Origin: a virus
Length of the DNA: 64,000 bases
Direction: 5' to 3' (one strand)
IMG/VR virus record: IMGVR_UViG_3300009103_000014
Coordinates: 16,404-80,403 of that record
Shown here: positions 4,680 through 44,223 of the stretch, piece by piece
Layout of the letters: the number at the start of each line of letters is the position of its first letter
How positions within the stretch are numbered: the first letter of the stretch is position 1
Notes under the pieces: model-generated
What the model saw: only the letters and a program-made list of their open reading frames with translations
Told to the model about the DNA's origin: nothing
The model's database searches: none
Program-made: the position numbers and the translations under genes

Positions 4680-6146
4680 TCATTTAGCCTCCCAGTCAAC
4701 TTTTTCTACCTGGAATGGGTAATTAGCTTCTTTATAAAACTTCTTTCTTTTAGTTAAATGTCTTTTAGCAAACTTACAGGTGCTAGTGATATCCCAAATT
4801 TGAACAAAATCTTTATCATCTGCTTTTCTAATACCACGTCCGATGCTTTGAATTACCCTAACAAAAGACTTGCCTGGTTCAAGCAAAATTAAATTAAATA
4901 TTCTTGGAATATTAATTCCTACTGAAGCTACACCATAAGTTGCTACAATAATTTTATCTGTAGCATCTGCTACTTCGTCGTAATGTTCTTTTCTATCATC
5001 ACCTTTTGTACTACCCGATATGAATACTGCTTTATCACCAATCATTTCTGTTAAATCTTTACCAGCACTAATTCTATCTACCAATATAAGTGTATTGCCT
5101 GACTCTGCTATTTTAGTAAACAATCGAGACAAATATTCTATTCTACTAGAATTTGTTAACAAGTATTTAAGCTCTTGCTGATAGCCTCCATAATCACCAT
5201 AGTCTTGTAATTGTACAACATTAACGTGACAATTGGCTAATACACCCTGAGCTTGTAATTCACTTGCCGGTATTTTTGCTGTTACCTCACCTAAACTTAC
5301 TTGTAAACTTTTCCATTCAAAATTTTCTTTAGGTATAGTTCCTGTTAATCCCCAACGTATTGGTACGTGAGCAAAGACTCCTGTTAATAACTGCTTTAAT
5401 ACATCTGCCTTAGCCATATGTACTTCATCAACCATAACACAAACAACATCTTCTATAAACTCTTCTATAGGAATTAATGCCTCACTATTTTTTGTTTTCT
5501 TTAACAATATATTTAAACTTTGCCAAGTACAAATGGTATGTGTTTTACCAAACTCTTTTCTATCACCAAAAAATACACCAACATCAAGACCCATATTAAG
5601 ATAGTCTTCTTCTGTTTGTGTTACTAATGATTTATTAGGTACAATTACAATACTTCTACCATATGGTTCTACCTTTTGACTTAATACAGCCGTTATTAAA
5701 GTCTTACCAGCACCAGTGGCTATTTCTTGTATGCTTTGTGGATTTTCTAAAAACTTATTAATGGTGTCTACTTGGTAATCACGTAATTTAATTGCTTCAC
5801 CGACCATTAAATGTTTTTCAGGCCAAGTAATATTACTATAAGAATCTTCTTTAACTTTTTCAAATTGAAAATTAGTTTTATATTGGCGTTTGTCATCTAG
5901 CTCAATTTCATAACCGAGTTCTTCTAATACAGGAATAATTTCTGGTAACAAATTAGTATAGGTGGAACCACCCAGCTGAAAAAATGCTATCTTACCGTCC
6001 CAGCGACCTAATCTTACTGCTGGAAGATATCTAGCATACGGAACTTCATATTTAAAACGATTTGATAATTTTTTACGAGCATTAAGATCTAATCCTTCAA
6101 ATTTAATGTTAACTTCATCCTTTATATGTAATATACATTTGCTCAT
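4680..6146 (-). CDS. uvsW: UvsW-like DNA/RNA helicase
   Basis: Superfamily 2 helicase that in T4 drives branch migration, fork regression and R-loop removal. 488 aa, close to T4 UvsW (about 500). N-terminal domain (1-110), then 'KLRDYQVDTINKFL', Walker A 'EIATGAGKT' near residue 145, Walker B 'MVDEVHMAK' near 240, motif III 'LTGT', and motifs V-VI 'ATYGVASVGINIP' and 'QSIGRGIRK'. Stop and start overlap neighbours (start shares one base with the stop of the 403-residue gene). Expected to act with UvsX, UvsY and gp32 encoded further right. Confidence 0.93.
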   Translation of the reverse strand: MSKCILHIKDEVNIKFEGLDLNARKKLSNRFKYEVPYARYLPAVRLGRWDGKIAFFQLGGSTYTNLLPEIIPVLEELGYEIELDDKRQYKTNFQFEKVKEDSYSNITWPEKHLMVGEAIKLRDYQVDTINKFLENPQSIQEIATGAGKTLITAVLSQKVEPYGRSIVIVPNKSLVTQTEEDYLNMGLDVGVFFGDRKEFGKTHTICTWQSLNILLKKTKNSEALIPIEEFIEDVVCVMVDEVHMAKADVLKQLLTGVFAHVPIRWGLTGTIPKENFEWKSLQVSLGEVTAKIPASELQAQGVLANCHVNVVQLQDYGDYGGYQQELKYLLTNSSRIEYLSRLFTKIAESGNTLILVDRISAGKDLTEMIGDKAVFISGSTKGDDRKEHYDEVADATDKIIVATYGVASVGINIPRIFNLILLEPGKSFVRVIQSIGRGIRKADDKDFVQIWDITSTCKFAKRHLTKRKKFYKEANYPFQVEKVDWEAK

Positions 6147-7357
6147 TAAAATAATTCATCACTATCAATTTCATTTTCTGAAGGTACTTTTGGTGCGACT
6201 TCAATAACTTTATTACTTTGGAATACATTTCTTTTACTAAACATACCGTACCCAATAGTTATCTCAGAATCAAAATCCCATTCTTTATTATGTAACCTAC
6301 TCATTTTATCAGTTATTAATACCTTTGTAGTTTCTATAGGCTTGTCTACCTTTGACCCAAGTCCATCAAAAACATTACTCTTACCACTAATTACTAATTC
6401 ATCTACTGTTCCAAACCTAGCTTTCCACATTCTTGCGATCTTTTTAATCTCTTTAATGTTTTCAGTTGAATGACTTGATAATCCAACGGCAATTTTTTCA
6501 AAACCTAAATCTAAACAACTAAACAATATAGTACTTAGATCGTTGTCCAATTTAACAAACCTATTTGTTAAGATTTTCTTTTCAAGTATATTAAAATTAT
6601 ACTTGGTTAAGACATCATTGTCAAGATTTATTGCCAATAATCCGCAACTTTTTATTTGTTGGAGAATTGACTTTTCTTTAATATTTTCATCCCAATACTT
6701 CTGTAATTCTTCAGGGGCATTATGTAATACTAATGAATCATTATTATGAGTAGCATAAATTGAATACTTTTCTTTATTGTTTAGAATTTCATTTAACTCA
6801 TTAACATAAGGCTCGACGTCATCTGAAAACTTATCAAATTCTTTTTCTTTACACCAGTTATACATCTTTAAAAAGTTATGTTCGTTATTATCTATCTCCC
6901 ATCTCTTTTTACTTTGATTCCATTTTGAATTCCCGTCATGTAATAAATTATCATCTCGTAAAAACCCGTTAACTTCTTTAATCCAATCTTGATTATATGG
7001 GAAATGTAAATAAATCCATTTATCGTTAAAATCAAATCTCTTTGAACGATCTACTGTCCTAACTTCTGTTCTAAAAACAGGATCTAAAACAATCTTTGTA
7101 ATATCAACACCAACTTGTCTAAACTGTTTGCGGTATTTACTAGTCAATTTAATAGCAAGATCTCGTTGACGTGATGTCATACCTTCGTTTCGATGTATGT
7201 AAGAAGACACATTATTAACAAAGTTAACATCATAACGAGCTAACTTAATATACATACCTATACCTCGACCGTGCTTTTTAGGAGTACGTGGCGGGGACTC
7301 AGACCCCGCCATAACTTCTATACAATACTCTATGTCTTTAGGTAAAAGCATCTTCAT
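6146..7357 (-). CDS. UvsW-adjacent conserved protein with HARP-like segment, 403 aa
   Basis: Basic N-terminus, then around residues 90-165 'WIYLHFPYNQDWIKEVNGF...WNQSKKRWEID', which resembles the HARP-type domain (lysine/tryptophan-containing 'W..k.k.W' pattern) found in annealing helicases of the SMARCAL1 family. The C-terminal half has 'FEKIAVGLSSHSTENIKEIKKIARM' and 'ETTKVLITDKMSRLH'. No ATPase motifs. Because it precedes UvsW with a one-base overlap and starts in an ATGA overlap itself, I infer it assists UvsW on forked DNA. The HARP match is weak and by eye. Confidence 0.5.
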   Translation of the reverse strand: MKMLLPKDIEYCIEVMAGSESPPRTPKKHGRGIGMYIKLARYDVNFVNNVSSYIHRNEGMTSRQRDLAIKLTSKYRKQFRQVGVDITKIVLDPVFRTEVRTVDRSKRFDFNDKWIYLHFPYNQDWIKEVNGFLRDDNLLHDGNSKWNQSKKRWEIDNNEHNFLKMYNWCKEKEFDKFSDDVEPYVNELNEILNNKEKYSIYATHNNDSLVLHNAPEELQKYWDENIKEKSILQQIKSCGLLAINLDNDVLTKYNFNILEKKILTNRFVKLDNDLSTILFSCLDLGFEKIAVGLSSHSTENIKEIKKIARMWKARFGTVDELVISGKSNVFDGLGSKVDKPIETTKVLITDKMSRLHNKEWDFDSEITIGYGMFSKRNVFQSNKVIEVAPKVPSENEIDSDELF

Positions 7358-8355
7358 TGATTAATTCCTTTTGTTACTGACTCTTTATTTTTGCCTTTTC
7401 TTACTTCATCATAATAGACAATAGTAGTAGGCACTTCAACTGGTTTGTAATACTCTTTACATTTTTTGTAAAGTTTGATTGAATCTTTATGATTAATATT
7501 AGGGGCTCCGGCACCATGTTCTAATTTATATAAAGTAAGATTATCATCATCTGTATAACCTTCACTTTGGTAACAATCCCATATAACATTTAAATTCTGA
7601 TAATTTATGTACCTTGTTAAGCCTGTACGATAAATGCCCCATTGAAAAAATACACCTCTATATTTTGATTGTGTTCGACCTTTGTAGTTGTATTTAAGTT
7701 CGTTATTAACCCAAACTTTAAAAAATCCGTCTTTCTTTTTAGTCCATTTTACGTTTATTAAAATATCATTCCATTTGCCTATCATATCTTCTTTAGGAAT
7801 AAGCAAAACTTCATCTCTATCACAAAATCCCATAGAACAATATCCTTCGATACCTTTATTACCGATAGTTCTTACTAAAGTATATCCACTCCTGTTTTCT
7901 TTAGTTTGAAATACAGGGTCATAACTATCACCAATATAATCTACTTCTTTAAATTGCCCGTATGTGTTTTGTAAAGGCCATAAATTTATATGACTTTTTG
8001 GAAAATACATTGACCAGGCTAACCAATGTTCACCGCCTGTCATATAATCTTTAGAACCTCTAGAATCGCCTGAATTAAATTCACGTCGTTCTCGATCTGT
8101 TTTACAATCTTGATGGAACCCAGTACCTCTACCGCAATCACCTTGTCGTACTTCGATTCTTAATGCTTCATTACCACTTCGTACAATATCATTAACAACT
8201 GTTACACCATAATCGCTAGGTTTAAAATTTCCTGCTTTATGTAAAGTATAAAAACCAGAACCAATATCATCTGATATTTTATACTTAGGCCCTTGTCCAG
8301 CATACGACTGAAATGATACAACGACAAATACTAAAGTTAGCAAAATCTTTTTCAT
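7354..8355 (-). CDS. Secreted polysaccharide lyase (heparin-lyase-I-like fold)
   Basis: Signal peptide at residues 1-19 (MKKILLTLVFVVVSFQSYA|G). The mature part shows the pattern of the bacterial polysaccharide-lyase family PF14099: 'SGNEALRIEVRQGDC', 'DRERREF...YMTGGEHWLAWSMYFP', 'GQFKEVDYI', 'GKWNDILINVKWT', 'GFFKVWVNNELKYNYKG' and 'RGVFFQWGIYRTGLTRY'. Such proteins cut acidic polysaccharides by beta-elimination. Here it would be exported by the infected host, or be part of lysis/release. It sits upstream of the UvsW partner (ATGA) and downstream of a strong terminator. Exact substrate is unknown; a non-catalytic glycan-binding protein of the same fold is possible. Confidence 0.75.
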   Translation of the reverse strand: MKKILLTLVFVVVSFQSYAGQGPKYKISDDIGSGFYTLHKAGNFKPSDYGVTVVNDIVRSGNEALRIEVRQGDCGRGTGFHQDCKTDRERREFNSGDSRGSKDYMTGGEHWLAWSMYFPKSHINLWPLQNTYGQFKEVDYIGDSYDPVFQTKENRSGYTLVRTIGNKGIEGYCSMGFCDRDEVLLIPKEDMIGKWNDILINVKWTKKKDGFFKVWVNNELKYNYKGRTQSKYRGVFFQWGIYRTGLTRYINYQNLNVIWDCYQSEGYTDDDNLTLYKLEHGAGAPNINHKDSIKLYKKCKEYYKPVEVPTTIVYYDEVRKGKNKESVTKGINQ

Positions 8356-9592: not shown

Positions 9593-10186
9593 TTAGGTTT
9601 TTAAATTATTTTCCTGTTTTAACCACTTTTGGAATTGATTTTGGGCATTTTGGAGTGATTTTACCCAGTCAAAATCAGCATTTTCGTCGGCATTATCAGA
9701 AATATACTTGATACAACGAAACTTTATACCCAATTTAGCACAGACAGTTGCCATGGCATAAGCCTCCATATCTACTATATCTACTTTTGCTTCGTCAAAC
9801 CATGGGTCTTTTGTGTTTACAAAACTATCACCTGTCCCTAGTGTAATATTAGTGCCTGAATTAAGCATTATAGCATGAGTTACACCGCCTTGATACGGTG
9901 TTTGGCCTCGTGGTGCTAATGGTGTTGCTACCATATCTCGCTGTAAAATAGTATCTACTTCTACTAACCCAGTATGCTTACCATTTACAGAACCAACTGT
10001 TCCAAAATTAATAACTTCAGTAATTTTACCATAGCTCAGACTGTGATTATCTTGAATAATTCTTCTTGTTAAGTTAAATGTGGCATTTATTTTACCTACA
10101 CCTGTATATACGATGCCAGATATCTCTGGTGGTTTATTTGCTAATGGAAATTCTTCTTCCAAAGCTACACTTATTAATGTTCCCAA
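9593..10186 (-). CDS. Nucleoside phosphorylase/nucleosidase-family protein
   Basis: About 197 aa from a TTG start. Visible motifs: 'YTGVGKINAT' (substrate loop), 'VINFGTVGSV', 'LGTGDSFV' and 'DIVDMEAYAMATVCAK', the last being the Glu-bearing purine/ribose site of the PNP/MTA-SAH nucleosidase fold, then 'RCIKYISDNADENA'. Family members cleave or phosphorolyse nucleosides; here a salvage role in phage nucleotide supply is likely. The TTG at 10186 has AGGAG seven bases before it; any upstream ATG would put the promoter (10214-10242) inside the coding frame, so it is rejected. Substrate (MTA/SAH, adenosine or other) is not decided. Confidence 0.85.
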   Translation of the reverse strand: MGTLISVALEEEFPLANKPPEISGIVYTGVGKINATFNLTRRIIQDNHSLSYGKITEVINFGTVGSVNGKHTGLVEVDTILQRDMVATPLAPRGQTPYQGGVTHAIMLNSGTNITLGTGDSFVNTKDPWFDEAKVDIVDMEAYAMATVCAKLGIKFRCIKYISDNADENADFDWVKSLQNAQNQFQKWLKQENNLKT

Positions 10187-10213
10187 TGTACTTCTCCTAT
10201 AAATAACTTTGTT

Positions 10214-10242
10214 ATTGTAACACAGACTAGTAAGTATGTCAA
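10214..10242 (-). promoter_or_regulatory. Sigma70-type promoter for the nucleosidase gene
   Basis: Minus strand: TTGACA (10237-10242), exactly 17 bp, TACAAT (10214-10219). It is nearly identical in layout to the site at 9522-9550 and decides the downstream TTG start. Confidence 0.88.
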
Positions 10243-10268
10243 GTTTATCCTTCATAATAAAATAAACC

Positions 10269-10276
10269 AATAAATA
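10269..10276 (+). promoter_or_regulatory. Late promoter box AATAAATA
   Basis: Plus strand AATAAATA followed by TCATAAC, 20 nt before the ATG at 10297, with AAAGGAG between. It is likely to drive the plus-strand cluster 10297-14109. Confidence 0.55.
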
Positions 10277-10296: not shown

Positions 10297-11064
10297 ATGG
10301 AAATTGATGATAAAATTATTCCTCTGCCAATTGACTTTGGCATTAAGCCCTTAGACAATCAACAAACATATGATTGGATTAGAGATAACAAACACCCTCA
10401 AGGAAATCATTTTGGTTGTGCTTTACCATGGTTAATGTTAGACTTTCCTGAATGGCCTCATAAAGAAATGGCCGAAGAAGCTAAAAAAATAGATGAAGCT
10501 GGATTGATACCAGATTACAATAGTGGAAGTAATATAGGCTGGTCAGCTGTAGCACTTTATGGGTTAAGTTCCGACTCTACATTACCTCCAGAGGAATATG
10601 GTTACAGCAATTACCAAGAAGCTAGAGCCGCCGGAGCATTAAACTGGACTGAGATTGCGGACCATTGTCCAATTACTACAAAATTTTTCAAAGACGACTT
10701 TCATTACAAACGTTATAACAGAATTAGATTTATGAAAGTAGCACCAGGTGGAATTATACGTTGGCATAACGATGTCCCTGACAACGAAGGCCCTACATTT
10801 GATTTAGGCGTTGTTAATATTAGTTTAACTAATCCAGAAGGTTGTTATTTTCATATGGGACAATGGGGTAATATTCCTGTAACTGATGGTTGTATGTGGT
10901 TGTTTGGTAACAATCATTATCATATGGTTATTAATACAAGTAAAGAACCTAGATATCATATGATAGCTAGTGGAACACCAGACGAAAAATTCTGGGCTGA
11001 TATAACAGCAAATAGTTTTCGTCGACAATGGTGGGGTGAATTTGTAGAGGACGAAAATGATTAG
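10297..11064 (+). CDS. AspH-like 2-oxoglutarate/Fe(II) hydroxylase
   Basis: 255 aa; residues about 145-225 contain 'RFMKVAPGGIIRWHNDVP', 'LGVVNISLTNPEGCYF', 'GCMWLFGNNHYHMVINTS' and 'PRYHMIASG'. This fits the aspartyl/asparaginyl beta-hydroxylase family: HxD-like WHND, a second His in 'YHMV' and the 2-oxoglutarate-binding Arg in 'EPRYHMI'. In marine phages such enzymes are thought to modify proteins or small molecules; substrate unknown. SD AAAGGAG is 5 nt before ATG. It overlaps the next gene by 8 nt, so it heads the plus-strand operon. Confidence 0.75.
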   Translation: MEIDDKIIPLPIDFGIKPLDNQQTYDWIRDNKHPQGNHFGCALPWLMLDFPEWPHKEMAEEAKKIDEAGLIPDYNSGSNIGWSAVALYGLSSDSTLPPEEYGYSNYQEARAAGALNWTEIADHCPITTKFFKDDFHYKRYNRIRFMKVAPGGIIRWHNDVPDNEGPTFDLGVVNISLTNPEGCYFHMGQWGNIPVTDGCMWLFGNNHYHMVINTSKEPRYHMIASGTPDEKFWADITANSFRRQWWGEFVEDEND

Positions 11065-11779
11065 TTGGAGTTTTATTAAAAATCAAGTTGCTTTAGTATA
11101 TTGGGATTATCGTAAATTCCTAGACGATAAAATTGATACTATGGATGAAAGTGGTGATACTGGTTTTATATTAACTAAAGCAAACCATGACGAACTTAAA
11201 GATATGTTTGCTTTTGAATATTCAGGCCCTGTTATTGAACTAGGTATTCTAAAAGCTATACAAAAATCTGAATCAAAATTTGCTATTATACAGGCACCAG
11301 GTAGTGTTATTGCTCGTGAATTTACTATTAGGGCTATAAACTATATGGAAAAAAATACTGAGTGTAGTGTTCTAGCTACCCATATACACAAAGTTGATAC
11401 CGAAGGTGATCGTTGGTGGGGTTTAATGCCGTATGTTATAGTTGTAAATTTAGTACATTTTAAAGAAGCCGGTAGATTATTTTTTGGCAATCGTAGAGAC
11501 GGTCCAGATGCTGGACAATTATTTCCTGAAATAGTAGATAACGATGGCATATTAACATCAACTGGTACAGATATACCTCCTCCAAGTAATAAATTGTTCT
11601 ATGGATGGAATTGGATATGTAAATTTTTACAAAAAGGATATGAAATTCATAAATTTGATAACAGAATAAATCCATTCAGACAATTTGTGTACTATGAATC
11701 AGAAAAAGATTTGAAAAAGCACAATTGGTTGCTAGAGAATATGACTGATTATATTGAGGACGGCGAACTTGACATCTGA
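11057..11779 (+). CDS. Hypothetical protein of three-paralogue cluster (member 1, N-domain only), 240 aa
   Basis: The protein shares a segment with the N-terminal half of the next gene: 'AIQKSESKFAIIQAPGSVIAREFTIRA' resembles 'ALEYKSNYAIIVEHNAKFCETLFIEM', each followed by an 'IH' strand and 'GLMPYVIVVNLVHF'-like hydrophobic strands. I do not recognise the family; alternating beta strands and helices look like a Rossmann or GT-A-like fold. Member 1 lacks the second domain of members 2 and 3. It overlaps both neighbours, so it is operonic. Function unknown. Confidence 0.6.
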   Translation: MISWSFIKNQVALVYWDYRKFLDDKIDTMDESGDTGFILTKANHDELKDMFAFEYSGPVIELGILKAIQKSESKFAIIQAPGSVIAREFTIRAINYMEKNTECSVLATHIHKVDTEGDRWWGLMPYVIVVNLVHFKEAGRLFFGNRRDGPDAGQLFPEIVDNDGILTSTGTDIPPPSNKLFYGWNWICKFLQKGYEIHKFDNRINPFRQFVYYESEKDLKKHNWLLENMTDYIEDGELDI

Positions 11780-12959
11780 TTTTAACAAAGATTTTAACAA
11801 ATACAAAGTTGATGATAACGAATATCCTAATGCCCAAAGGATATTAGAATCTAAAGTTGACTTAATATTAGTAAACCCAAACGAAGAAACATATTTCTAT
11901 AGTTTACTTGTTAATAACGTTGTTAATAATGTACAAACTGTTAAAACACTAAAAGAAGCACTCGAATATAAAAGTAACTATGCTATTATTGTAGAGCATA
12001 ATGCTAAATTTTGTGAAACATTGTTTATTGAAATGTTAATCAAACACATTCGTGAACAAAAAAATATTAGTACTGGTAACATTCATCTTTTAAAACAAAG
12101 AGACCCTTTAATAGTTCGTGGTGGACAAGGAAACACTTTAGAAGATTGTATTACTGACAAAACATTAGAAGAATTTTCTACTCTTGACAGACCTGTTTGT
12201 AATGATTTAACAACATTAAAAATTGATGAATCAATTAGTCCTTGGCGGAGTAATATTTTTGCTTTTAATACAGAAATATATATAAACCCTTTTGAAAAAA
12301 TTAACAACAAAGAATTTGGTCACTATATGATGGTTGCTTCGGGTTGGTTATGGGCATGGTTATTACATACTAATAATTGGAACCCAAGAGAAAATCAATA
12401 TGTAACATTATTCGATGTTAGTGGGTTACAATTATTATTTGTAGAAAACTTAATAAGTTATTGGTCTCCGTGGGACCAATCTTATACTGACTTTGTTATG
12501 TCAAATGATCTTGCTAAAAGTATAATGATTAAATCTGGATGGATTGAAGATTTTTCAGAGGAAAGAATTAAAGAGAGTAAAGAACATTTAGATTCTTTAT
12601 GGGATCAAGAAATGAAAAGATGGGGCGATGAACAATCATTTCTAGAATTTTTTCGAGAACTACAATGGGCATCAGCTAATGGTAAACTATCTTATGCTAA
12701 TTTAAATATTATAAGTGATGGTTATATAACAAAAAAATTAGCATCTTCAACAAATGGAAGAACTTTTTGGTTTGTAAGTAACATCTTTACTAGTCATGCT
12801 AGTCGTATGTGGTCGAATGGTAGTAAAGAAAACGAACTAGACTGGTATGAGGTATTTAAAAAGAGACTAAACAAAAAAGATATTATATATGGACGTTATC
12901 CAATTTTTGATGAAAAAGAAGATATAATTAGACCTGAAAAATCCCCAGAGGAAATATAA
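11769..12959 (+). CDS. Hypothetical protein of three-paralogue cluster (member 2), about 396 aa
   Basis: Two parts. The N-terminal half resembles member 1. The C-terminal half (about residues 175-290) carries 'MVASGWLWAWLLH..NW', 'VTLFDVSGLQLLFVENLISYW' and 'WDQEMKRWG', all repeated in member 3. The pattern 'LFD(V/I)S.L...F...(L/I)..W' has a methyltransferase-like strand-turn look, but no clear SAM loop is seen. The TTG start at 11769 is preferred (GAGGA eight bases before it); TTG 11754 is the alternative. The stop of member 1 overlaps the start. Function unknown. Confidence 0.6.
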   Translation: MTSDFNKDFNKYKVDDNEYPNAQRILESKVDLILVNPNEETYFYSLLVNNVVNNVQTVKTLKEALEYKSNYAIIVEHNAKFCETLFIEMLIKHIREQKNISTGNIHLLKQRDPLIVRGGQGNTLEDCITDKTLEEFSTLDRPVCNDLTTLKIDESISPWRSNIFAFNTEIYINPFEKINNKEFGHYMMVASGWLWAWLLHTNNWNPRENQYVTLFDVSGLQLLFVENLISYWSPWDQSYTDFVMSNDLAKSIMIKSGWIEDFSEERIKESKEHLDSLWDQEMKRWGDEQSFLEFFRELQWASANGKLSYANLNIISDGYITKKLASSTNGRTFWFVSNIFTSHASRMWSNGSKENELDWYEVFKKRLNKKDIIYGRYPIFDEKEDIIRPEKSPEEI

Positions 12960-12960
12960 T

Positions 12961-14109
12961 ATGAAATATACTGAATACTATGAAATAATGAGAGACAATT
13001 ATTCTATTATAGTTCCTAAAACTATGAATCAAAATACTAAATTCTTTTCTAAAATAGTTTCATATTGTTTTGGTGATAGAATTTATTCTTCTGTTGAACA
13101 ATGTCCAACAGCTGGGTATTTTACTATTACTGACAACAATAAAAATATTAGTGAAGATATTTTAATGATGTTAGTACATCTTCAACATACAAAAAAAGCA
13201 GGTGAAGTTAAATCACATTGTGGTTCTATTATTGCTACCTATAATACATTTGATACTAATAACAAAGAAACATTAAACTCAAGTGATTATCAAGATGCTT
13301 TAACTATTACAGATGATTGGCAAACTAATAATTATTTTAGAAATGTAATTTCAATTTCATTAGGAGGATATACTTTAGTCCATCATATGTACAATACTGA
13401 AAAATATTGGAATGGTGGTATAAAGAAAGCAATTCGTACTAAGGCAAACTTTGATCAATTTGTTATGTTACCGAGCGGATTAAAATTTGCTTGGATGTTA
13501 CATAAATTAGGTTGGACACCTGATAAACCTTTAGTTCTTTTTGACATTAGTAGTCTTCCTATTGCTTTTGCTAAAGAAATGATACTATCATGGGATGGTT
13601 CTTATCCATTACATGATTGGGCGATAAAAGACCCTATTGCTAAAGGAGTACTATTAGCTAGTGGTCAATTACAAGAAGGTACAAGACCAGGAGCAGGACC
13701 AAAAGAATGGGACGATCTTTGGCAAAGAGAAATTAAACTCTGGGACGGAATTGAAAATATTATCGACACTATGGCAGACTTAAAAGAAGCAGAAGTTAAT
13801 AAAAACATTGTTTGGTGCTCTCTTAATGTTGTTACTGATTCAATGGGACAAGATATTATTTTTAAAAACTTAGATAATAAGCCTACAGTATTTTGGTTTA
13901 GTAATTGTTATAATACTAGTAGTACTGGTTCAATGATAGCAAGTGATGTTGATAACATTTATAACATTAAATCTAGATACAGCACATCTATTGACTTATA
14001 CCAAAACTTAAAATCTAAACTACCAAAAGATAGTTTAATAATAGGTAGCATTCCTGTTGAAGATTATGGAAGACATTCGGATGGTTGGGCTGGATTTGAT
14101 TGGTTATAA
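12961..14109 (+). CDS. Hypothetical protein of three-paralogue cluster (member 3), 382 aa
   Basis: ATG one base after the stop of member 2, with GAGGAAAT just before. The N-terminal half contains 'DRIYSSVEQCPTAGYFTITD' and 'EDILMMLVHLQHT', and the C-terminal half 'MLPSGLKFAWMLHKLGWTP', 'LVLFDISSLPIAFAKEMILSW' and 'WDDLWQREIKLWDG'-like pieces that match member 2 ('WDQEMKRW'). It ends in a 6-nt convergent overlap with the FkbM gene. It is most likely a duplicated enzyme or binding protein tied to surface modification, inferred from the neighbouring glycan cluster only. Confidence 0.6.
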   Translation: MKYTEYYEIMRDNYSIIVPKTMNQNTKFFSKIVSYCFGDRIYSSVEQCPTAGYFTITDNNKNISEDILMMLVHLQHTKKAGEVKSHCGSIIATYNTFDTNNKETLNSSDYQDALTITDDWQTNNYFRNVISISLGGYTLVHHMYNTEKYWNGGIKKAIRTKANFDQFVMLPSGLKFAWMLHKLGWTPDKPLVLFDISSLPIAFAKEMILSWDGSYPLHDWAIKDPIAKGVLLASGQLQEGTRPGAGPKEWDDLWQREIKLWDGIENIIDTMADLKEAEVNKNIVWCSLNVVTDSMGQDIIFKNLDNKPTVFWFSNCYNTSSTGSMIASDVDNIYNIKSRYSTSIDLYQNLKSKLPKDSLIIGSIPVEDYGRHSDGWAGFDWL

Positions 14110-14937
14110 AAGTTTATTAGCTTTAGTTAAATCATTAGACACTCTAGCATACATTTTTTTATAACTATCATTTTCATCTAATACAGGTTCTAAATATTCA
14201 AATTTAACATTTATCTTAGGTGATATTACTAACAAGTTAATTACCCCGCTACTACCAAATATATTTTTTTCAAAATTATTATAATTATCTGGATTAAAAT
14301 TCCTAACAGGACACCAATACATTTTTTCATATCCTAATTTTTTAAATCTAGTATATATATGAGTAAGATGTGTTTCATCATTACATTCAACAAATACACT
14401 AGGTAAATGTTTTGCCAATGTATGTTTGGCTCCTTTAAATACAGATAATTCTTCTCCTTCTACATCTACTTTTAAAAGATCTAATCTCGTAAATTGCATT
14501 TGATCTAATCTCATTGTAGGAACTAGTTCCATATATTCGCCACTTGTATTTAAACTAGATTCACCGTAGTTGCCAGGTTTTTGAGGATTGTAATTACTTA
14601 AATATCTATTACCAGCACTTCTACTTAAAGCATAAGGAAATACTGTAGCATTAGTAACTTTATTATCTAATAAATTACGTTCTAATAATCCTCTAGAATA
14701 TTCATTTGGTTCAAAGGCGTGTACATGACCTTTATGTGCTAATCTTGTAAAAGGTACTGTATGGGTTCCAATGTTAGCACCTATATCAGCTATATGCCAG
14801 TCTGGTTCTATTATTTGTTCTAAACACATTATTTCCCATTCACAATATTCGCCATATACATTTAAACTTTTTCCAATAATAATATCATTATCAAAAAAAG
14901 TATATGAACCGTGTCTACATTTTTTAGTTGTTATCAT
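14104..14937 (-). CDS. FkbM-family SAM methyltransferase
   Basis: 277 aa. SAM site 'IADIGANIGTHTVPF' near residue 50, then 'VHAFEPNEYSRGLLERNL' and 'FTRLDLLKVDVEGEELSVFKGA', a textbook FkbM pattern; 'LPSVFVECND' follows. These enzymes O-methylate sugars or polyketides, so a glycan target fits the cluster. The start at 14937 forms ATGA with the stop of the glycosyltransferase gene before it; the TTG at 14943 is less likely. Confidence 0.88.
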   Translation of the reverse strand: MITTKKCRHGSYTFFDNDIIIGKSLNVYGEYCEWEIMCLEQIIEPDWHIADIGANIGTHTVPFTRLAHKGHVHAFEPNEYSRGLLERNLLDNKVTNATVFPYALSRSAGNRYLSNYNPQKPGNYGESSLNTSGEYMELVPTMRLDQMQFTRLDLLKVDVEGEELSVFKGAKHTLAKHLPSVFVECNDETHLTHIYTRFKKLGYEKMYWCPVRNFNPDNYNNFEKNIFGSSGVINLLVISPKINVKFEYLEPVLDENDSYKKMYARVSNDLTKANKLL

Positions 14938-15635
14938 ACCCAATTCTCTGCTATTATAGGATCATTAGCAAGTTCAGAAGGATTTGGACTACCATGAAAA
15001 ACTAATACACTTGTATCATTATCTATTGTTGTAATATCTGAATTGTATTCTGTGGTACCCATTCTTTTTAATCCGCCGTTTAATACTTCCCATTTATAAC
15101 TCATTACCCATTTTTTAGGCCACCAAACTTTGTTGTCGCCTAAAATACTTGTTAACCAATCTTGGTCGCCTTTAAACTTATTAATAATTTTTGTTTTATC
15201 ATTTAAAAAGTCTACATAATATTTAACAAAAGAATTAGCCTTGAACATCATAACAGAACTATTACTTACATGGTAATCTGGCATAGAGTGTCTATTAAAA
15301 TCTTGACATATATTAAATTCTTCTGGTGAATTCTCAAACAATTTATCTAATTGTCCTACAATTACAGTATCTAAATCTAAATATAATACAAGACCTTCCC
15401 ATTGTTGTTCATTAAACATATTAGTTTTATACCACCAGGCTTTATTACCTTTTTGAAATTGTTCATCAACAGGAAGTTCTATAGGTATAACACCAGGTAT
15501 ATTTACATTTAACTCTGTTGTTAAGCAATAAAAATTAAAAGGTTGATGTAGATGTCGTTTGACGCTATTGTATAATTTCTGTACATAAGAAATATCATAC
15601 TTTGGTGGTACCCAAACACAAGCTACATTTACCAT
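14934..15635 (-). CDS. GT8-like glycosyltransferase
   Basis: 233 aa with 'YVQKLYNSVKRHL' near the start, 'WWYKTNMFN', the metal-binding DxD in 'LVLYLDLDTVIVGQLD' (about residues 83-98), 'CQDFNR', 'FKGDQDWLT' and 'VFHGSPNPSE' near the C-terminus. This is the usual order of GT-A, GT8-like nucleotide-sugar transferases. It shares a base with the cupin gene stop (15635), and ATGA with FkbM downstream. Donor and acceptor sugars unknown; likely lipopolysaccharide, capsule or virion glycan. Confidence 0.8.
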   Translation of the reverse strand: MVNVACVWVPPKYDISYVQKLYNSVKRHLHQPFNFYCLTTELNVNIPGVIPIELPVDEQFQKGNKAWWYKTNMFNEQQWEGLVLYLDLDTVIVGQLDKLFENSPEEFNICQDFNRHSMPDYHVSNSSVMMFKANSFVKYYVDFLNDKTKIINKFKGDQDWLTSILGDNKVWWPKKWVMSYKWEVLNGGLKRMGTTEYNSDITTIDNDTSVLVFHGSPNPSELANDPIIAENWV

Positions 15636-15991
15636 TATACTTTTCTACCTATCGTTCTACGAACTATATCATTATGGTTAAACTCTGCCCAATACAATTC
15701 AAAAGCAACACCATCTTCTATGCCCTCAAATTGATGGACCATTCCAGGCTTAACTACTGTAAAGTCTCCTGGACTTAAAATTGTTTCGTCTATTAATCCG
15801 TCTTGATCATTATCTTGCCAAACACGAACAAGCATCTTTCCTGACTCTACAAAAAATCCGTTAAACTTATATTTGTGTTCATGTTCTGAACATTTAAATC
15901 CTGCTTTAAATTCTATTCTATGAAATTCTAATACACCATTGGCGTGTATTAATTCTGTTTGTCCCCATACTTTTCCTGCTTTTACTGTCAT
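15635..15991 (-). CDS. Single-domain cupin protein
   Basis: 118 aa with one cupin barrel: 'EFKAGFKCSEHEHKYKFNGFFVESGKMLVRV' region (residues 28-57; not quoted further), 'LSPGDFTVVKPGMVHQFEG' (73-91). Metal-ligand histidines are present ('HEHK', 'VHQF'). Similar to the C-terminal cupin of mannose-6-phosphate isomerase/sugar epimerases, so sugar or nucleotide-sugar binding is the likely role. It is encoded in an ATGA overlap behind thyX and one base before a glycosyltransferase gene. Confidence 0.75.
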   Translation of the reverse strand: MTVKAGKVWGQTELIHANGVLEFHRIEFKAGFKCSEHEHKYKFNGFFVESGKMLVRVWQDNDQDGLIDETILSPGDFTVVKPGMVHQFEGIEDGVAFELYWAEFNHNDIVRRTIGRKV

Positions 15992-16653
15992 GCTATATCT
16001 CCTATTAATGGAAAAATCTTTGCTATAGCTATAGCACAGGCGTGAGCTATTTCCATGTGTTCTTTTTGTGTTCCGTGAGCACTTCTTAAATCAATATAAT
16101 GTACCCAGCTTCGTAAAGTACCATTCATATACAAAGTTGTTTTAGTTAATCCTTCTGGCAAAACTGCTCTAGCTTGTTCTTTAGCTATTCCGTTAGTTAT
16201 TGCCCATTCATAAGCTCTTTCAGAGGCTTCTATGACTCCTTGTTGATACCTAAACCAATCCATAGTTAATTGAACATCTTCTGTTGGAATTGAATTTTGT
16301 CTATTAACAGGGTCTTGTAATCTTGTTTCTTTAGTAGTATACCAATCTTCCATTTGTGTAGGGTCAGCATAACGTTGACTAAATTCTTGAAAACTAAAAC
16401 TACGATGTCTAACTATTTGATGAGCAATATCTCTTGTTGTTTTAATTTCCAAACAGGCATTAACCATTTCCAAAGGTGACCAATGTTGATGTTTAATCAA
16501 ATACTTAATTAACTTTTCACTAGTTGCTTTGTTTACTTGATTACTTGGATTGCTTACTTTGGCACAATAGGCTATTAACTCTTGTATATTATCAAGACCT
16601 AAATGCTTATATTCGTCTGTAGGTTGTGTATACGATACTAATTTTACATTCAT
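15988..16653 (-). CDS. thyX: FAD-dependent thymidylate synthase
   Basis: Makes dTMP from dUMP with methylene-tetrahydrofolate and NADPH. 221 aa, a usual length. ThyX motif 'RHRSFSFQEFSQRY' at about residues 82-95 matches RHRxxSxxExSxRY, with conserved 'QARAVLPEGLTKT' and 'LRSWVHYIDLR' further on. First gene of the minus operon, with its own sigma70-type promoter; supplies thymidine for phage DNA synthesis. Common in marine phages. Confidence 0.95.
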   Translation of the reverse strand: MNVKLVSYTQPTDEYKHLGLDNIQELIAYCAKVSNPSNQVNKATSEKLIKYLIKHQHWSPLEMVNACLEIKTTRDIAHQIVRHRSFSFQEFSQRYADPTQMEDWYTTKETRLQDPVNRQNSIPTEDVQLTMDWFRYQQGVIEASERAYEWAITNGIAKEQARAVLPEGLTKTTLYMNGTLRSWVHYIDLRSAHGTQKEHMEIAHACAIAIAKIFPLIGDIA

Positions 16654-16673
16654 AATAATTTCTCTATAATACT

Positions 16674-16702
16674 ATTATAACAAAACTTACAACAATGGTC
16701 AA
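16674..16702 (-). promoter_or_regulatory. Sigma70-type promoter for thyX
   Basis: Minus strand: -35 TTGACC (16697-16702), 17 bp, -10 TATAAT (16674-16679), 21 nt before the thyX ATG. The -35 sits directly at the stop end of the next FkbM gene. Confidence 0.8.
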
Positions 16703-17344
16703 TCATTTTAAAAACACAGCCTCTTTTTTAAATTGTCTTGGTTGCCACTTATAGCCATGTGACGCTAATAGTTCTTTCATTTTTCTGTGGGTGTGTTTTT
16801 CTTGTTGACTTCGTCTAGGCAACTCTACTACTAAACATACGTCATTATTTTTTAAAGTTTCCAATGACCCTAGTATTACTTCTTCCTCTGTACCTTGTAC
16901 GTCTATCTTTATATACCCAACGTTGGTTAAATTGTAACTATCTAATGTATGTACTGAAGTTGTTTCTCCACTATCTGTTGTTGCCCATTCACTATTTAAA
17001 CTACCAGCACCACAATTTTTAGCATTTGAATACAATACTTGATCATCTTTTTCTTCTTTGCCTAATGCTAAATTATATAATGTATAGTTTTCACTAGTGA
17101 CATTTTTTTCTAAACATTTACAGTTATCTAGGAAAGGTTCAAAAGCATGAACATGATTAAATTTTTCACAGAGAGGACTTGTCCAAAATCCAATATTAGC
17201 ACCAATATCTATTGCTATTGTATTAAAGTCTTTTACCTTTTTAAGAGTAAAGTCTCTACTATACTTTTGATAATGCCCTTCAATTATTTGCTTTTCAAAG
17301 TGGTAGTCATAATCTGGCATCCACCAACCTTTTACATTTTTCAT
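16703..17344 (-). CDS. FkbM-family SAM methyltransferase
   Basis: 213 aa with SAM loop 'AIDIGANIGFWTSP' near residue 45, 'VHAFEPFLDNCKCLEKN', 'LDSYNLTNVGYIKIDVQG', and 'VCLVVELPRR'. Same family as its neighbour at 17341-17985 and as 14104-14937, but the three are not close copies. Start forms an ATGA overlap with the preceding gene stop. Sugar O-methylation is the family role; the target is not known. Confidence 0.87.
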   Translation of the reverse strand: MKNVKGWWMPDYDYHFEKQIIEGHYQKYSRDFTLKKVKDFNTIAIDIGANIGFWTSPLCEKFNHVHAFEPFLDNCKCLEKNVTSENYTLYNLALGKEEKDDQVLYSNAKNCGAGSLNSEWATTDSGETTSVHTLDSYNLTNVGYIKIDVQGTEEEVILGSLETLKNNDVCLVVELPRRSQQEKHTHRKMKELLASHGYKWQPRQFKKEAVFLK

Positions 17345-17985
17345 TTCATTACCACGTTTCGGTTATAACTATCCCAAGCAACAATATCATAATTGAGATG
17401 TTCTCGACAATAATCTATTCCAGATGTATCACCTGCTTCTGCTTCTACTACTAGTACAGGTTTGTGTTTTAGAATAGTTTCTTTTGCGCCTGCTAATACT
17501 CTTGTTTCAAATCCATCAACATCTATTTTAATATAATCTACTTGAGGTATATCAAACTGATCCAAAGCATAAATTCTATGATCTTGCCAGTTTGTTTTTT
17601 CTCCTACCCTCTCAACCATCATATTAGCACCGCCACTAACTTTAATAACTTTTTCTGCTTCACCTAGTCCTGTATGAAATAAAGTTATTTTGTCTAGGGG
17701 TATGTTATGAGTAAAATATGCTCTTGGTCTATAATCAAAGCAATATACGTGATTAAAGTTGTTTGCTAGATACCTAGCATATTCTCCATCTCTACATCCA
17801 ATATCAATAGCATTATTAAACGAATCAATATGTGGTATACTGGCTACCCATGTAACTTTACAATGATGGTTTGGAAATTCTTTATTTCCATCAACACTTT
17901 TAAAATAATCTCTTTCATACCAATCAGGCTGGTAACCACCTTCTACTGATTGGGGTAACTCGACAGGTTTAATTGGATACATCAT
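17341..17985 (-). CDS. FkbM-like SAM methyltransferase
   Basis: About 214 aa. 'NNAIDIGCRDGEYARYLA' (SAM loop, altered from GxNxG to GCRDG), 'VYCFDYRPRAYFTH', 'DQFDIPQVDYIKIDVDGFETRVLAGA' (split here: 'VDYIKIDVDGFE' is the FkbM hallmark) and 'KPVLVVEAEAG'. Start choice is uncertain: ATG 17985 has GGTGG seven bases before it; 17982 and 17991 are alternatives. It overlaps the upstream fusion gene by 17 nt. Likely acts on a sugar in the same pathway. Confidence 0.8.
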   Translation of the reverse strand: MMYPIKPVELPQSVEGGYQPDWYERDYFKSVDGNKEFPNHHCKVTWVASIPHIDSFNNAIDIGCRDGEYARYLANNFNHVYCFDYRPRAYFTHNIPLDKITLFHTGLGEAEKVIKVSGGANMMVERVGEKTNWQDHRIYALDQFDIPQVDYIKIDVDGFETRVLAGAKETILKHKPVLVVEAEAGDTSGIDYCREHLNYDIVAWDSYNRNVVMK

Positions 17986-18832
17986 GTTCATACCACCGTT
18001 CAATATCATTTTCTGTTAGCTTGTTAGTTTCGCCTTTCCATATTTCAATAATATGTGCTGGCTTATCACTTTTGTTTCTACCTTTATGCCAATACCCTTT
18101 TGCTATATCAACAGGATTAGCAGGAGCCAACGTCCACACATTTGCTCCATCAAATGGATTACCCATTAATGTCCAATTAACTAATACTTCAGCTTCACCA
18201 CTAACAAGGTTCCAAGTTTCACTTCTGTTTTGATGACGTTGCATACTCAAACTACTATGTGGGTTAATAACTAATTCTTTAACCATAAATCCTTTGCCTT
18301 TATATAAGTTTCTATAATGCCCCCAACTACGAACAACTTTAGGTGCCTTCCAATTTTCTAATAACCAACTACTTGAATTCTTTTTATCTTCTCCACCTAC
18401 ACCAAAAACAAATTGTACCTGGCTTTCATCATAATAATGAGAAACTTCTGGTATATTTTCTCTTGTTCGATCACCGCCATTAGCAAATATAACAGTATCT
18501 TCCCAAGAAGCAGTTTTTGAACCTACGTTAAACACATTACCAGCAAGAACTTTTTCAATAGCATCTATGGCAGTTCCATCAGTCCAAACTTGGTCACCAT
18601 TTATATTTGTATCATTAAATGTAATAGCTTGATCTACACATCTTAATTCTTCAACAACAGCAAGACGCTCTTTCATAGGCATAAAAGGTTTTCCTTTTTT
18701 ACGCCTTAACCATTCATCTGAATTAAGACCGACAACTAGTTTATCACCAAGTTTTCTTGCTTCTTTAAACAAAGCAATATGACCTGAATGTAATGGGTCA
18801 AATCCGCCAGTTACTAATACAATTTTAGACAT
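17969..18832 (-). CDS. Nucleotidylyltransferase-cupin fusion (sugar-nucleotide enzyme)
   Basis: 287 aa, two domains. Residues 1-165: cytidylyl/adenylyltransferase with the HxGH signature 'TGGFDPLHSGHIALFKEAR', 'KLVVGLNSDEWLRRKKG' and 'FANGGDRTRENIPE' plus an ISTSS-like 'KKNSSSWLLENW'. Residues 170-287: cupin of the mannose-6-phosphate isomerase type II kind, with 'LVINPHSSLSMQRHQNRSETW' spanning its histidine site and 'YWHKGRNKSDKPAHIIEIW'. The first domain would activate a sugar or polyol phosphate (HldE/TagD-like), and the second may isomerise or bind it. A compact one-gene supply route for a nucleotide sugar is inferred. Two-base gap from the preceding gene. Confidence 0.82.
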   Translation of the reverse strand: MSKIVLVTGGFDPLHSGHIALFKEARKLGDKLVVGLNSDEWLRRKKGKPFMPMKERLAVVEELRCVDQAITFNDTNINGDQVWTDGTAIDAIEKVLAGNVFNVGSKTASWEDTVIFANGGDRTRENIPEVSHYYDESQVQFVFGVGGEDKKNSSSWLLENWKAPKVVRSWGHYRNLYKGKGFMVKELVINPHSSLSMQRHQNRSETWNLVSGEAEVLVNWTLMGNPFDGANVWTLAPANPVDIAKGYWHKGRNKSDKPAHIIEIWKGETNKLTENDIERWYEHDVSN

Positions 18833-41660: not shown

Positions 41661-42040
41661 TCAATGATGTTCCTTAATACATTTGGGTTTGCTGTTCTAG
41701 AATTAGCGTATCCTAAGACACTAGTTTTTATTCTATAACTGTTTATAATAGCTATTAAATTTTTTTGTACGTCGTTAATATTTTCTGATTCTAATCTTTC
41801 TATTAAAGACATTATATCATATCCACCATTATAAGCAATCTCAAACAGACTATCTGTTAATGTACTTGCTGTTGTTTGATCATCATTTGTTTTTCTTAAA
41901 AAGAAAGATTTAACTGCTTGATGTTGTGCGGCATCAATAGATATATTTTGATTAAAATATCCATTAAAAAAATCTACTGTTTTTTCTTTTGATTCTACGT
42001 TTTGATCTACGTTTGTACTAGCATATAAATTCTCAGCCAT
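41657..42040 (-). CDS. Small conserved structural-region protein, 127 aa
   Basis: Helical, uncharged surface; 'KTVDFFNGYFNQNISIDAAQ' and 'LTDSLFEIAYNGGYDIMSLI', ending 'SVLGYANSRTANPNVLRNII'. It overlaps its neighbours by one base and ATGA, being translated between the tube-like protein and gp4. I recall equivalents in other marine T4-like phages. Virion or assembly role presumed. Confidence 0.6.
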   Translation of the reverse strand: MAENLYASTNVDQNVESKEKTVDFFNGYFNQNISIDAAQHQAVKSFFLRKTNDDQTTASTLTDSLFEIAYNGGYDIMSLIERLESENINDVQKNLIAIINSYRIKTSVLGYANSRTANPNVLRNIIE

Positions 42041-43590
42041 TATTCACCTGCCTCTGGAGTCCAAGTACTAGAATTATTCTTTTTAACAATATATGGTTCG
42101 CCGTCAATTTCTGCTAGTTCTGAACCTTTAGCAATTGATTGTCCTGTATAAGCTGTAGCGTCTTGATGAGGATTACTTGCTGTTCCGTATGTTGTGCTTC
42201 TCGAAGAAGCAGACGAAGAACTTAATTGTGTGTTTACTTCACCTTTACTAGTTGTTGCTCCACCTAATGTGTTTATTATTGTACCTGCGGCCGCACCAGC
42301 AATAACTCCTTTAACCATTCCTTTAATATCACCGTCCATGATAGCACCTGCGGCGGCTCCAACAATAAGAGATTTAGTCATTGTACTCATATTAAATCCT
42401 GATTGTACTCTGCTATTTCCACCTTCTGGAACTCCCATTCCACCAAACTCCATCCCGCCAGCACTAGCAACTGATCCAGCACCACCACTCGCGTCAGCTT
42501 GTAAGTACGCCATTGGGCCAGCGGCAAACGGTTGTGTACCTTGAACAGCATTTCCGTCTTCACCAGTAACTGTGCCTGTGCCTGTTATAAAATTCGTTTT
42601 AGGTAATGGGTTAAATTTTCTTGCGACGCTTTGACCGGCTGATCCTGGGAAGGCAAATGGATTTTCACCTTTTAATGCTTTACGAACTCCCTGACTTATT
42701 TCAGAATTTACAAAACTTTTTAAATCAACATTTTGGAAATTTTGAAATGTTCTTAAACCTTGTATTGCGGCACTTCCAAATTTTCCTGAAGCTAAATCCT
42801 GAGACATTTGTCCAGTAGCATCAAATAAACCGCCTACACCAAATAATGATGTTGTACCTCCGCCTTCTGGCGACAATGGACTTGCTTTTTTATCATAGTG
42901 TAAATCACCAAAGCCTGTCGGCGAACCTACACCACCAATAAAACCAGTAGCATATTTTACAAGTTCATATTCAACTTGCATTATATTTTCTAATACATCA
43001 CTTTGACTATGATCATGACTGTCATGATTATAATTTGTTAGTAATGGATTAATTAATGTGTATTCTGTAAACTTTTTACCGTATATACTATAAATTCTTA
43101 TATCATCAAAAAACGGTTCGTGATTTGCTCTTTCATAACCAAACATTCTAGCAACTCTAGGGCCATATGTATCTTTATACCTATAAGTAGCGAAATTTTC
43201 ATATGCTTGATCAGTATAGTAATAATCCATGTAAGCATACCACATATTTCGTGATATGTCTGCCATATCATCGTGTATTCGTATGTTTATAGGATTAAAA
43301 TTTAATTTAGATTGAATATTTCTGACACGATTGTATTGATTCATCTGAGTTGTGTCAAAAGTGTATGTTGGTAATTCAACTGATTTTACCAACATACTTA
43401 TTTCTCTTTTTGTTTCGTCTTTTACTATAGCCGCCGCTGTTGGCGACAAGTTAAACACGACATAAAATAAAAACTTTTGCTTCGGTGCTAACCTAAAATT
43501 ACCATCTCTAAAAGTTCTAGAGGCGTGTTGGTAATCTCTTATAGCTTTCCGACCGGTTAAGGCATTAAGAAAAGCGTTCATGCTCCCCAT
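42040..43590 (-). CDS. Tail-tube-superfamily protein, gp54-like, 516 aa
   Basis: N-terminal 270 residues have the tube-like domain: 'PKQKFLFYVVFNLSPTAAAI', 'LVKSVELPTYTFDTTQMNQY', 'NPINIRIHDDMADISRNMWY' and 'VEYELVKYATGF', similar in order to gp19. The C-terminal half is Gly/Ser/Ala-rich with hydrophobic Ala-Gly stretches ('IMDGDIKGMVKGVIAGAAAG'). T4 gp54, the tube initiator, has a tube fold but is 320 aa; whether this is gp54 or a phage-specific tube relative is not settled. ATG 43590 has AAGG before it; ATG 43581 is possible. Confidence 0.65.
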   Translation of the reverse strand: MGSMNAFLNALTGRKAIRDYQHASRTFRDGNFRLAPKQKFLFYVVFNLSPTAAAIVKDETKREISMLVKSVELPTYTFDTTQMNQYNRVRNIQSKLNFNPINIRIHDDMADISRNMWYAYMDYYYTDQAYENFATYRYKDTYGPRVARMFGYERANHEPFFDDIRIYSIYGKKFTEYTLINPLLTNYNHDSHDHSQSDVLENIMQVEYELVKYATGFIGGVGSPTGFGDLHYDKKASPLSPEGGGTTSLFGVGGLFDATGQMSQDLASGKFGSAAIQGLRTFQNFQNVDLKSFVNSEISQGVRKALKGENPFAFPGSAGQSVARKFNPLPKTNFITGTGTVTGEDGNAVQGTQPFAAGPMAYLQADASGGAGSVASAGGMEFGGMGVPEGGNSRVQSGFNMSTMTKSLIVGAAAGAIMDGDIKGMVKGVIAGAAAGTIINTLGGATTSKGEVNTQLSSSSASSRSTTYGTASNPHQDATAYTGQSIAKGSELAEIDGEPYIVKKNNSSTWTPEAGE

Positions 43591-43596
43591 GGCGCC

Positions 43597-44223
43597 TTAC
43601 CCCGTAATAACTTGTCCTGCCGCTCTAGCCACTGCCGCGCCTATACCTGCTCCGCCGGCTCCAGCTGGTAATTGTACCGCATTATCAAATCTAATTGACA
43701 TAGTAACACTTGCTGGTTCTGATGAAGCATAGTTCAAGTCATTGTAATTAACATTCTCAATATAACAACCATATAGTTCCCACTCTTCTAATGAAGTAGG
43801 AGCAGATGATCCGTTACCGCCATCTAATAGCTCAAATCTTGTTAAGAACTTATAATCAATACCAGCTGAAGCTGATGCTTGTTCCATGAAGTCAAATTGC
43901 TTCTGAACTTGCTCGCCTACTAGTTTTGATACATTACTTGAAACGTCATCTCTTATATTAACTGTAACGGGGTCCCACGTATGTTTCCCAATTATATTAA
44001 TCTTAGAGTTATAAACATCTACAGGAATTTGCTCAAAGTTAACGCTTGGACGGGTTACATCCATAACCTGTTTTGTAAGTTCTGCTCTTGAAGTAGATAC
44101 TCCAAAATTCTCAAAACTCACTCTAAAGCGATATTTAAGTTTTGGCATAAGCAGACCTTGTGAACTTGCACTTTGTCCGCCTGCTAGTGGAACAGTAAAC
44201 TTGTTTAATGAACTTACTGACAT
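43597..44223 (-). CDS. gp19: Tail tube protein (gp19-like)
   Basis: 208 aa versus 163 in T4. 'LKYRFRVSFENFGVS', 'ELTKQVMDVTRPSVNFEQIP', 'IIGKHTWDPVTVNIRDDVS' and 'ELYGCYIENVNYNDLNYASS' form the known gp19 order; the C-terminus is Gly/Ala-rich. Polymerises inside the sheath as the inner tube. AAAGGAG precedes the ATG, and a late box is 26 nt upstream. It lies directly downstream of gp18, as in T4. Confidence 0.9.
   Translation of the reverse strand: MSVSSLNKFTVPLAGGQSASSQGLLMPKLKYRFRVSFENFGVSTSRAELTKQVMDVTRPSVNFEQIPVDVYNSKINIIGKHTWDPVTVNIRDDVSSNVSKLVGEQVQKQFDFMEQASASAGIDYKFLTRFELLDGGNGSSAPTSLEEWELYGCYIENVNYNDLNYASSEPASVTMSIRFDNAVQLPAGAGGAGIGAAVARAAGQVITG

Follow-up and report, generated by a model that had tools for sequence, protein, structure and literature searches.

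A conserved operon in a T4-type jumbo phage

The DNA analysed here (the window) is a stretch of 64,000 nucleotides, positions 16,404 to 80,403 of the IMG/VR record IMGVR_UViG_3300009103_000014, and belongs to a virus record of 80.4 kb. It carries on its plus strand four closely spaced genes, H, A, B and C, the first of which encodes a predicted aspartyl/asparaginyl beta-hydroxylase. Our analysis points to B and C as an old pair of paralogs with a predicted methyltransferase fold, and to H-A-B-C as a conserved unit. The features of the locus are the following (SAM, S-adenosylmethionine; GT-A, glycosyltransferase type A).

10198–10205, plus strand: TATAAATA, exact match to the T4-type late promoter (site scan), 99 nucleotides before H
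10270–10276, plus strand: ATAAATA, late-promoter-like site, 27 nucleotides before H
10297–11064, plus strand: gene H, 255 amino acids, PF05118 aspartyl/asparaginyl beta-hydroxylase-like
11057–11779, plus strand: gene A, orphan of 240 amino acids, predicted fold weakly GT-A-like, no DxD at the expected strand end
11769–12959, plus strand: gene B, two-domain protein with a TTG start, paralog of C
12294–12956, plus strand: C-terminal domain of B, approximately residues 176–396, homologous to that of C (blastp, hhalign)
12961–14109, plus strand: gene C, two-domain protein of 382 amino acids, structure modelled
13414–14106, plus strand: C-terminal domain of C, approximately residues 152–382, SAM-methyltransferase-like predicted fold

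Along H-A-B-C, consecutive genes are joined by an overlap of 8 nucleotides, an overlap of 11 nucleotides and a gap of 1 nucleotide; a Shine-Dalgarno-like GAGG or AGGA stands ahead of each gene, and genes on the minus strand border the operon on both sides. The mechanical open reading frame (ORF) of B begins at 11754, and the TTG start at 11769 has a Shine-Dalgarno-like GAGGA. An earlier annotation of the locus (the original prediction) had proposed a plus-strand overlapping operon of three genes (at 11057, 11769 and 12961) behind an AspH-like hydroxylase in a phage. The operon, with ORFs at 11057–11779, 11769–12959 and 12961–14109 directly behind H, is borne out, H scores 39.2 bits against PF05118, above the curated cut-off of 22.6, and the phage context holds.

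The terminase encoded in the window is closest to those of jumbo phages of the PA5oct group (52% identity), the window also encodes T4-type tail sheath, tail tube, UvsX, single-strand DNA-binding and clamp-loader-like proteins, and the H-A-B-C operon is present in a related record of 204.1 kb as well. On this basis, the source virus is assigned to the T4-type jumbo phages.

Distribution, duplication and selection

A comparison of synteny, which had been proposed as a check, revealed an identical H-A-B-C order in six further IMG/VR lineages (L006/L007/L009, L008, L010, L011/L012, L013 and L030), with several flanking genes kept alongside; the fragment L070 adds a close copy of the C of L030. 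Profile searches identified exactly a single B and a single C per record, in the window's own record as in all six relatives, the 204 kb one included. When all B and C proteins are placed in one tree, the B sequences group together and so do the C sequences, both with 100/100 support, which places the single duplication behind the two genes before the divergence of the sampled lineages. What had been described as tandem growth of a domain family is thus better seen as one old duplication within a conserved unit, with no expansion. Omega values of 0.08–0.41 indicate purifying selection on H, A, B and C, and pairwise identities correlate among the genes (r 0.95 for B versus C, 0.52–0.82 for the other pairs), with B proteins across the seven lineages falling to 33% identity.

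Nothing credible was found for A, B or C in Pfam, PHROGs, NCBIfam or PDB sequences. Searches with tblastn of 50,697 phage records (queries P0001, P0002, P0003 and P0004 plus two divergent members) returned nothing meaningful, and profile searches of the jumbo phages PA5oct, Phosso, Vibrio 2.275 and Atu_ph07 and of eight cyanophages, most of them run with the own genome as positive control, returned nothing. A candidate cellular relative, L034 (Prevotellaceae), the single match in cellular genomes, was rejected as an out-of-frame chance match; PADLOC gave one match, below noise, and a literature search for the H-A-B-C combination found nothing relevant. The folds themselves are known ones; none of the libraries searched annotates the B/C family or the association of the four genes.

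The hydroxylase H

Residues H157, D159, H209 and R219 of H are invariant across the seven lineages. We equate H157 and H209 with the Fe(II) ligands, and R219 with the 2-oxoglutarate-binding residue, of human AspH, and on this assignment H appears to retain the His and Arg residues that define a PF05118 hydroxylase. In profile score and in these positions H resembles the PF05118 aspartyl/asparaginyl beta-hydroxylases, which are best known for action on Asp/Asn, but it differs from them by its linkage to orphan proteins. H is presumably active as a hydroxylase.

Late-promoter motifs before the operon

TATAAATA is reported as the late promoter for T4 and KVP40, and NATAAATA as that of cyanophage S-PM2 (PMC2984593). 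The two sites at 10198 and 10270 place TATAAATA-like promoters close before the first gene of the operon, as in a T4-type late unit. An ATAAATA core is found near the position equivalent to the 10198 site in L006, L008, L010, L011 and L013, and the ATAAATA 27 nucleotides before H is kept in five of the six other lineages, L030 having ATAAGTA. The window contains the motif only 13 times, against 30–71 times for the other permutations of its bases. Of the 13 sites, 8 lie 10–60 nucleotides before a gene start, a zone that comprises 2.5% of positions; the 204 kb relative has 20 of 39 sites in the corresponding zone. ATAAATA also precedes genes that include those for the tail tube, virion structural proteins and the single-strand DNA-binding protein. 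Given the motif enrichment, the T4-type match and the conserved site before H, the operon is most likely transcribed late.

B and C share a methyltransferase-like domain

Blastp aligns B and C in their C-terminal parts with 27% identity over 232 amino acids (E 1e-21), hhalign relates the two proteins with a probability of 99.7% over 344 columns, and the C-terminal domains alone give E 1e-24. These values confirm the claim that the second and third genes share a C-terminal domain with the blocks LFD(V/I)S and ASG...AW.LH. The N-terminal parts alone give a weak but in-register match (E 0.0018; reversed controls 0.1–0.7).

The AlphaFold2 model of C has a predicted local distance difference test score (pLDDT) of 87 and a predicted template-modelling score of 0.84. 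Its fold was assigned from VIA-align Z-scores: residues 137–382 superpose on 6ulo_A with Z 11.3 (root-mean-square deviation, rmsd, 4.1; 200 aligned), and further matches are CheR (Z 9.2, rmsd 3.6, 167 aligned), EgtD (Z 9.1) and NNMT (Z 9.1). Foldseek of the same model against the PDB yielded nothing below E 0.001, the best value being 0.012. The model thus predicts for C the seven-stranded Rossmann-like fold of class I SAM-dependent methyltransferases, and for B this fold is assigned by homology only.

Although the C-terminal domain of C is predicted to fold like 6ulo, CheR, EgtD and NNMT, the protein differs from these enzymes in having no acidic-GxGxG motif, no sequence similarity to them and an additional N-terminal domain. 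In place of motif I (acidic-x-GxGxG after strand 1), all C proteins have LPSGLKF and all B proteins (A/S)SG(W/F). The acidic residue at the end of strand 2 is present as D195 in all seven C proteins, and in B it is Asp in four and Asn in three of the seven; B and C alike keep N289, D293 and the pair S314-N315 without exception. The C-terminal domain of B and C is therefore predicted to be of methyltransferase fold, but because motif I is missing it fails as a canonical methyltransferase. Judged by the order of strands and helices in the C model, the N-terminal domain of B and C gives the impression of being GT-A-like.

The uncharacterised Caudovirales proteins A0A6J7WK42, A0A6J7WH01 and A0A6J5KYS8 match both domains of C in Foldseek (E 2e-10 to 1e-5), and these three and A0A6J5T9P3 resemble C over both domains at approximately 10% identity. 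Closer to hand, the FkbM methyltransferases (PF05050) that adjoin the operon are, like B and C, of SAM-methyltransferase type. An origin of B and C from these genes was rejected, as no profile similarity was found between B/C and the neighbouring FkbM proteins (E 0.13–0.47; positive control FkbM versus FkbM, E 2e-14) and B and C have no PF05050 match in Pfam.

Protein A and its relation to B and C

The original prediction had counted A as a third paralog, with an N-terminal domain common to all three proteins. Blastp detects no similarity of A to B or to C, and hhalign-type profile comparisons give E-values of 0.05 and 0.3 for the full-length proteins and 0.026 and 0.19 when A is set against only the N-terminal portions of B and C, level with an unrelated control pair, A versus H (E 0.024). 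The idea that A is homologous in sequence to B and C was accordingly rejected, the shared N-terminal domain is at noise level for A, and the three supposed paralogs are rather two, B and C, accompanied by A, which is linked to the pair by a weak similarity of fold at best. An origin of A from the neighbouring glycosyltransferase was likewise rejected, there being no profile signal.

Structure prediction, also proposed as a check, succeeded in part: the model of C is confident, whereas that of A is poor (pLDDT 45). In the comparison of the A model with the PDB, all 50 rows among the matches listed are of GT-A or nucleotidyltransferase type (Z ≤5.8), including TarP, SpsA, IspD and KdsB, and A probably has a GT-A-like fold, as far as such a model can indicate. 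A differs from these proteins in that QxPGS replaces the DxD motif of GT-A glycosyltransferases: AIIQxPGS stands at the expected strand end in 7/7 A proteins, a place that was judged from the same poor model. A0A6J5T9P3, a viral protein of 768 amino acids, was matched by the model of A (E 1.4e-3) as well as by that of C (E 5e-4), which hints at a fused relative.

The glycosyltransferase domain of human LH3 is among the weak matches of the A model (Z 4.1–4.5). The parallel between the present operon and the lysyl hydroxylase/glycosyltransferases, human LH3 and mimivirus L230, lies in the notion that a 2-oxoglutarate hydroxylase works jointly with sugar transfer. However, H is from another hydroxylase family, the genes are separate, and the phage has no collagen-like substrate, which makes the likeness an analogy only; a lysyl-hydroxylase-like reading was rejected after no collagen-like GXY substrate was found in either the window or the relative of 204 kb.

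Genes around the operon

Downstream of C, the minus-strand stretch 14104–18009 contains three FkbM-type methyltransferases within 4 kb (14104, 16703 and 17341), two of which are clearly profile-related; a glycosyltransferase (14934), a cupin (15635) and ThyX (15988) are encoded there too. The adjacent gene at 17969–18832 (minus strand) has an RfaE-type nucleotidyltransferase-like start (GGFDPLHSGHIALFKEA) and a cupin-like end, and by eye is a possible fusion. Upstream, the divergent gene at 9593–10270 (minus strand) belongs to the phosphorylase superfamily (PF01048); its TTG start at 10270 has probably been placed too far upstream, as it would put the two late-promoter-like sites of the operon inside the gene. 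Further upstream on the minus strand, the 403-amino-acid protein of 6146–7357 is conserved in the relatives and has no PHROG or Pfam match, and that of 7354–8355 (333 amino acids) has a likely signal peptide, no PHROG match and no match among the relatives' listed ORFs.

Several relatives have lineage-specific insertions in the conserved cluster beside the operon that were not seen in the window, namely a 508-amino-acid ORF in L010 (9328–10854, minus strand) and a protein of approximately 195 amino acids starting MLAFGCS in L006 (10076–10672), L008 (7276–7872) and L011 (10323–10904), all on the minus strand. L011 and L013 have in this neighbourhood a 236-amino-acid protein, replacing the window genes 16703–18009 and 9593–10270 (minus strand), that by eye resembles a second, different phosphorylase-type enzyme. 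Elsewhere in the window, the minus strand encodes two adjoining tail-tube-like proteins of very unequal length (42040–43590, 516 amino acids; 43597–44223, 208 amino acids), beside a very long tail sheath (44315–47515, 1066 amino acids).

Discussion

We tentatively favour, at somewhat short of an even chance, the explanation that H-A-B-C is one late-expressed unit that modifies a macromolecule during virion production in a T4-type jumbo-phage lineage. In such a pathway H would use Fe(II) and 2-oxoglutarate to hydroxylate the side chain of Asp/Asn or some similar acceptor, and A, as a probable GT-A-like protein, and B-C would next elongate the hydroxylated acceptor, transfer a group to it or hold it. 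B and C would act as an obligate, anciently duplicated pair, each composed of an N-terminal alpha/beta domain and a SAM-methyltransferase-fold domain. The acceptor would most likely be a phage structural protein, otherwise a cell-surface glycan, and the late timing favours a virion protein over a role in early host takeover. The analysis establishes the operon structure, the paralogy of B and C and the age of their duplication, the strict joint conservation of the four genes, the purifying selection on them, the late-promoter motif and the predicted fold of C in its C-terminal domain. The joint action of the four proteins, the activity of H, the GT-A-like nature of A, the order of the steps and the substrate are what we infer, and the specific substrate suggested in the original prediction is a plausible idea.

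Several observations count against this explanation. The A model is of poor quality (pLDDT 45), no DxD is seen in A and canonical motif I is absent from B and C, and catalysis by A, B and C is for this reason only putative; the late timing is motif-based; and the membership of the minus-strand neighbours in the operon is unsupported. A more specific version, in which the four proteins form a late machine whose Asp/Asn hydroxylase makes an attachment site and in which A and a B-C heteromer install a new kind of virion-protein modification through transferase folds with a non-canonical SAM or nucleotide-sugar site, strikes us as decidedly unlikely.

With the canonical motifs lost, there is also a real chance that A, B and C do not catalyse anything themselves but serve H as partners or as substrates. 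That B and C, and perhaps A, are pseudo-enzymes that use transferase folds in a binding or structural role (for example scaffolds or minor virion parts) and are modified by H as its substrates, an idea raised in the original prediction, is somewhat unlikely in our estimate. It would fit the loss of SAM motif I in 14/14 B and C proteins, the replacement of Asp by Asn after strand 2 in three B proteins, the lack of a conserved DxD in A, B or C and the late promoter motif common to the operon and structural genes; however, polar, active-site-like residues are strongly invariant in C (H141, H142, N145-E147, D195, D212, H218, E239, R242, N289 and D293), and a conserved substrate alone leaves two divergent, strictly paired copies unexplained. 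We regard it as unlikely that the target of H-A-B-C is not a protein but a glycan of the host surface or a small nucleotide-sugar precursor, for example to block superinfection. The conserved neighbours of the operon include three genes for FkbM methyltransferases as well as genes for a glycosyltransferase, a cupin and a nucleotidyltransferase-like protein, and IspD, KdsB and NeuA are among the weak matches of the A model, but all these neighbouring genes lie on the other strand and lack ATAAATA, which probably puts them outside the regulon of the operon, and PF05118 enzymes are best known for action on Asp/Asn. Finally, the four genes might be unrelated accessory genes that merely share one transcript: the functional link between them is a presumption, and other genes of the neighbourhood come and go, as the extra ORFs in L006, L008 and L010 attest. 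This is very improbable, given that the order is constant in 7/7 lineages, with B down to 33% identity, while adjacent accessory genes turn over, and that all four genes are under purifying selection.

If the favoured explanation, a late-expressed modifying unit, is true, the combination of a hydroxylase with transferase-fold proteins, intact in diverged jumbo phages, would suggest that phage particles, or the host surface late in infection, are modified post-translationally, something poorly known in bacterial viruses. B and C form an unannotated family whose predicted SAM-methyltransferase fold is altered. The ATAAATA signature, depleted overall and clustered before gene starts, may be used to map the late regulon of this lineage, and H provides a direct handle through hydroxylated Asp/Asn, should virion proteins carry it.

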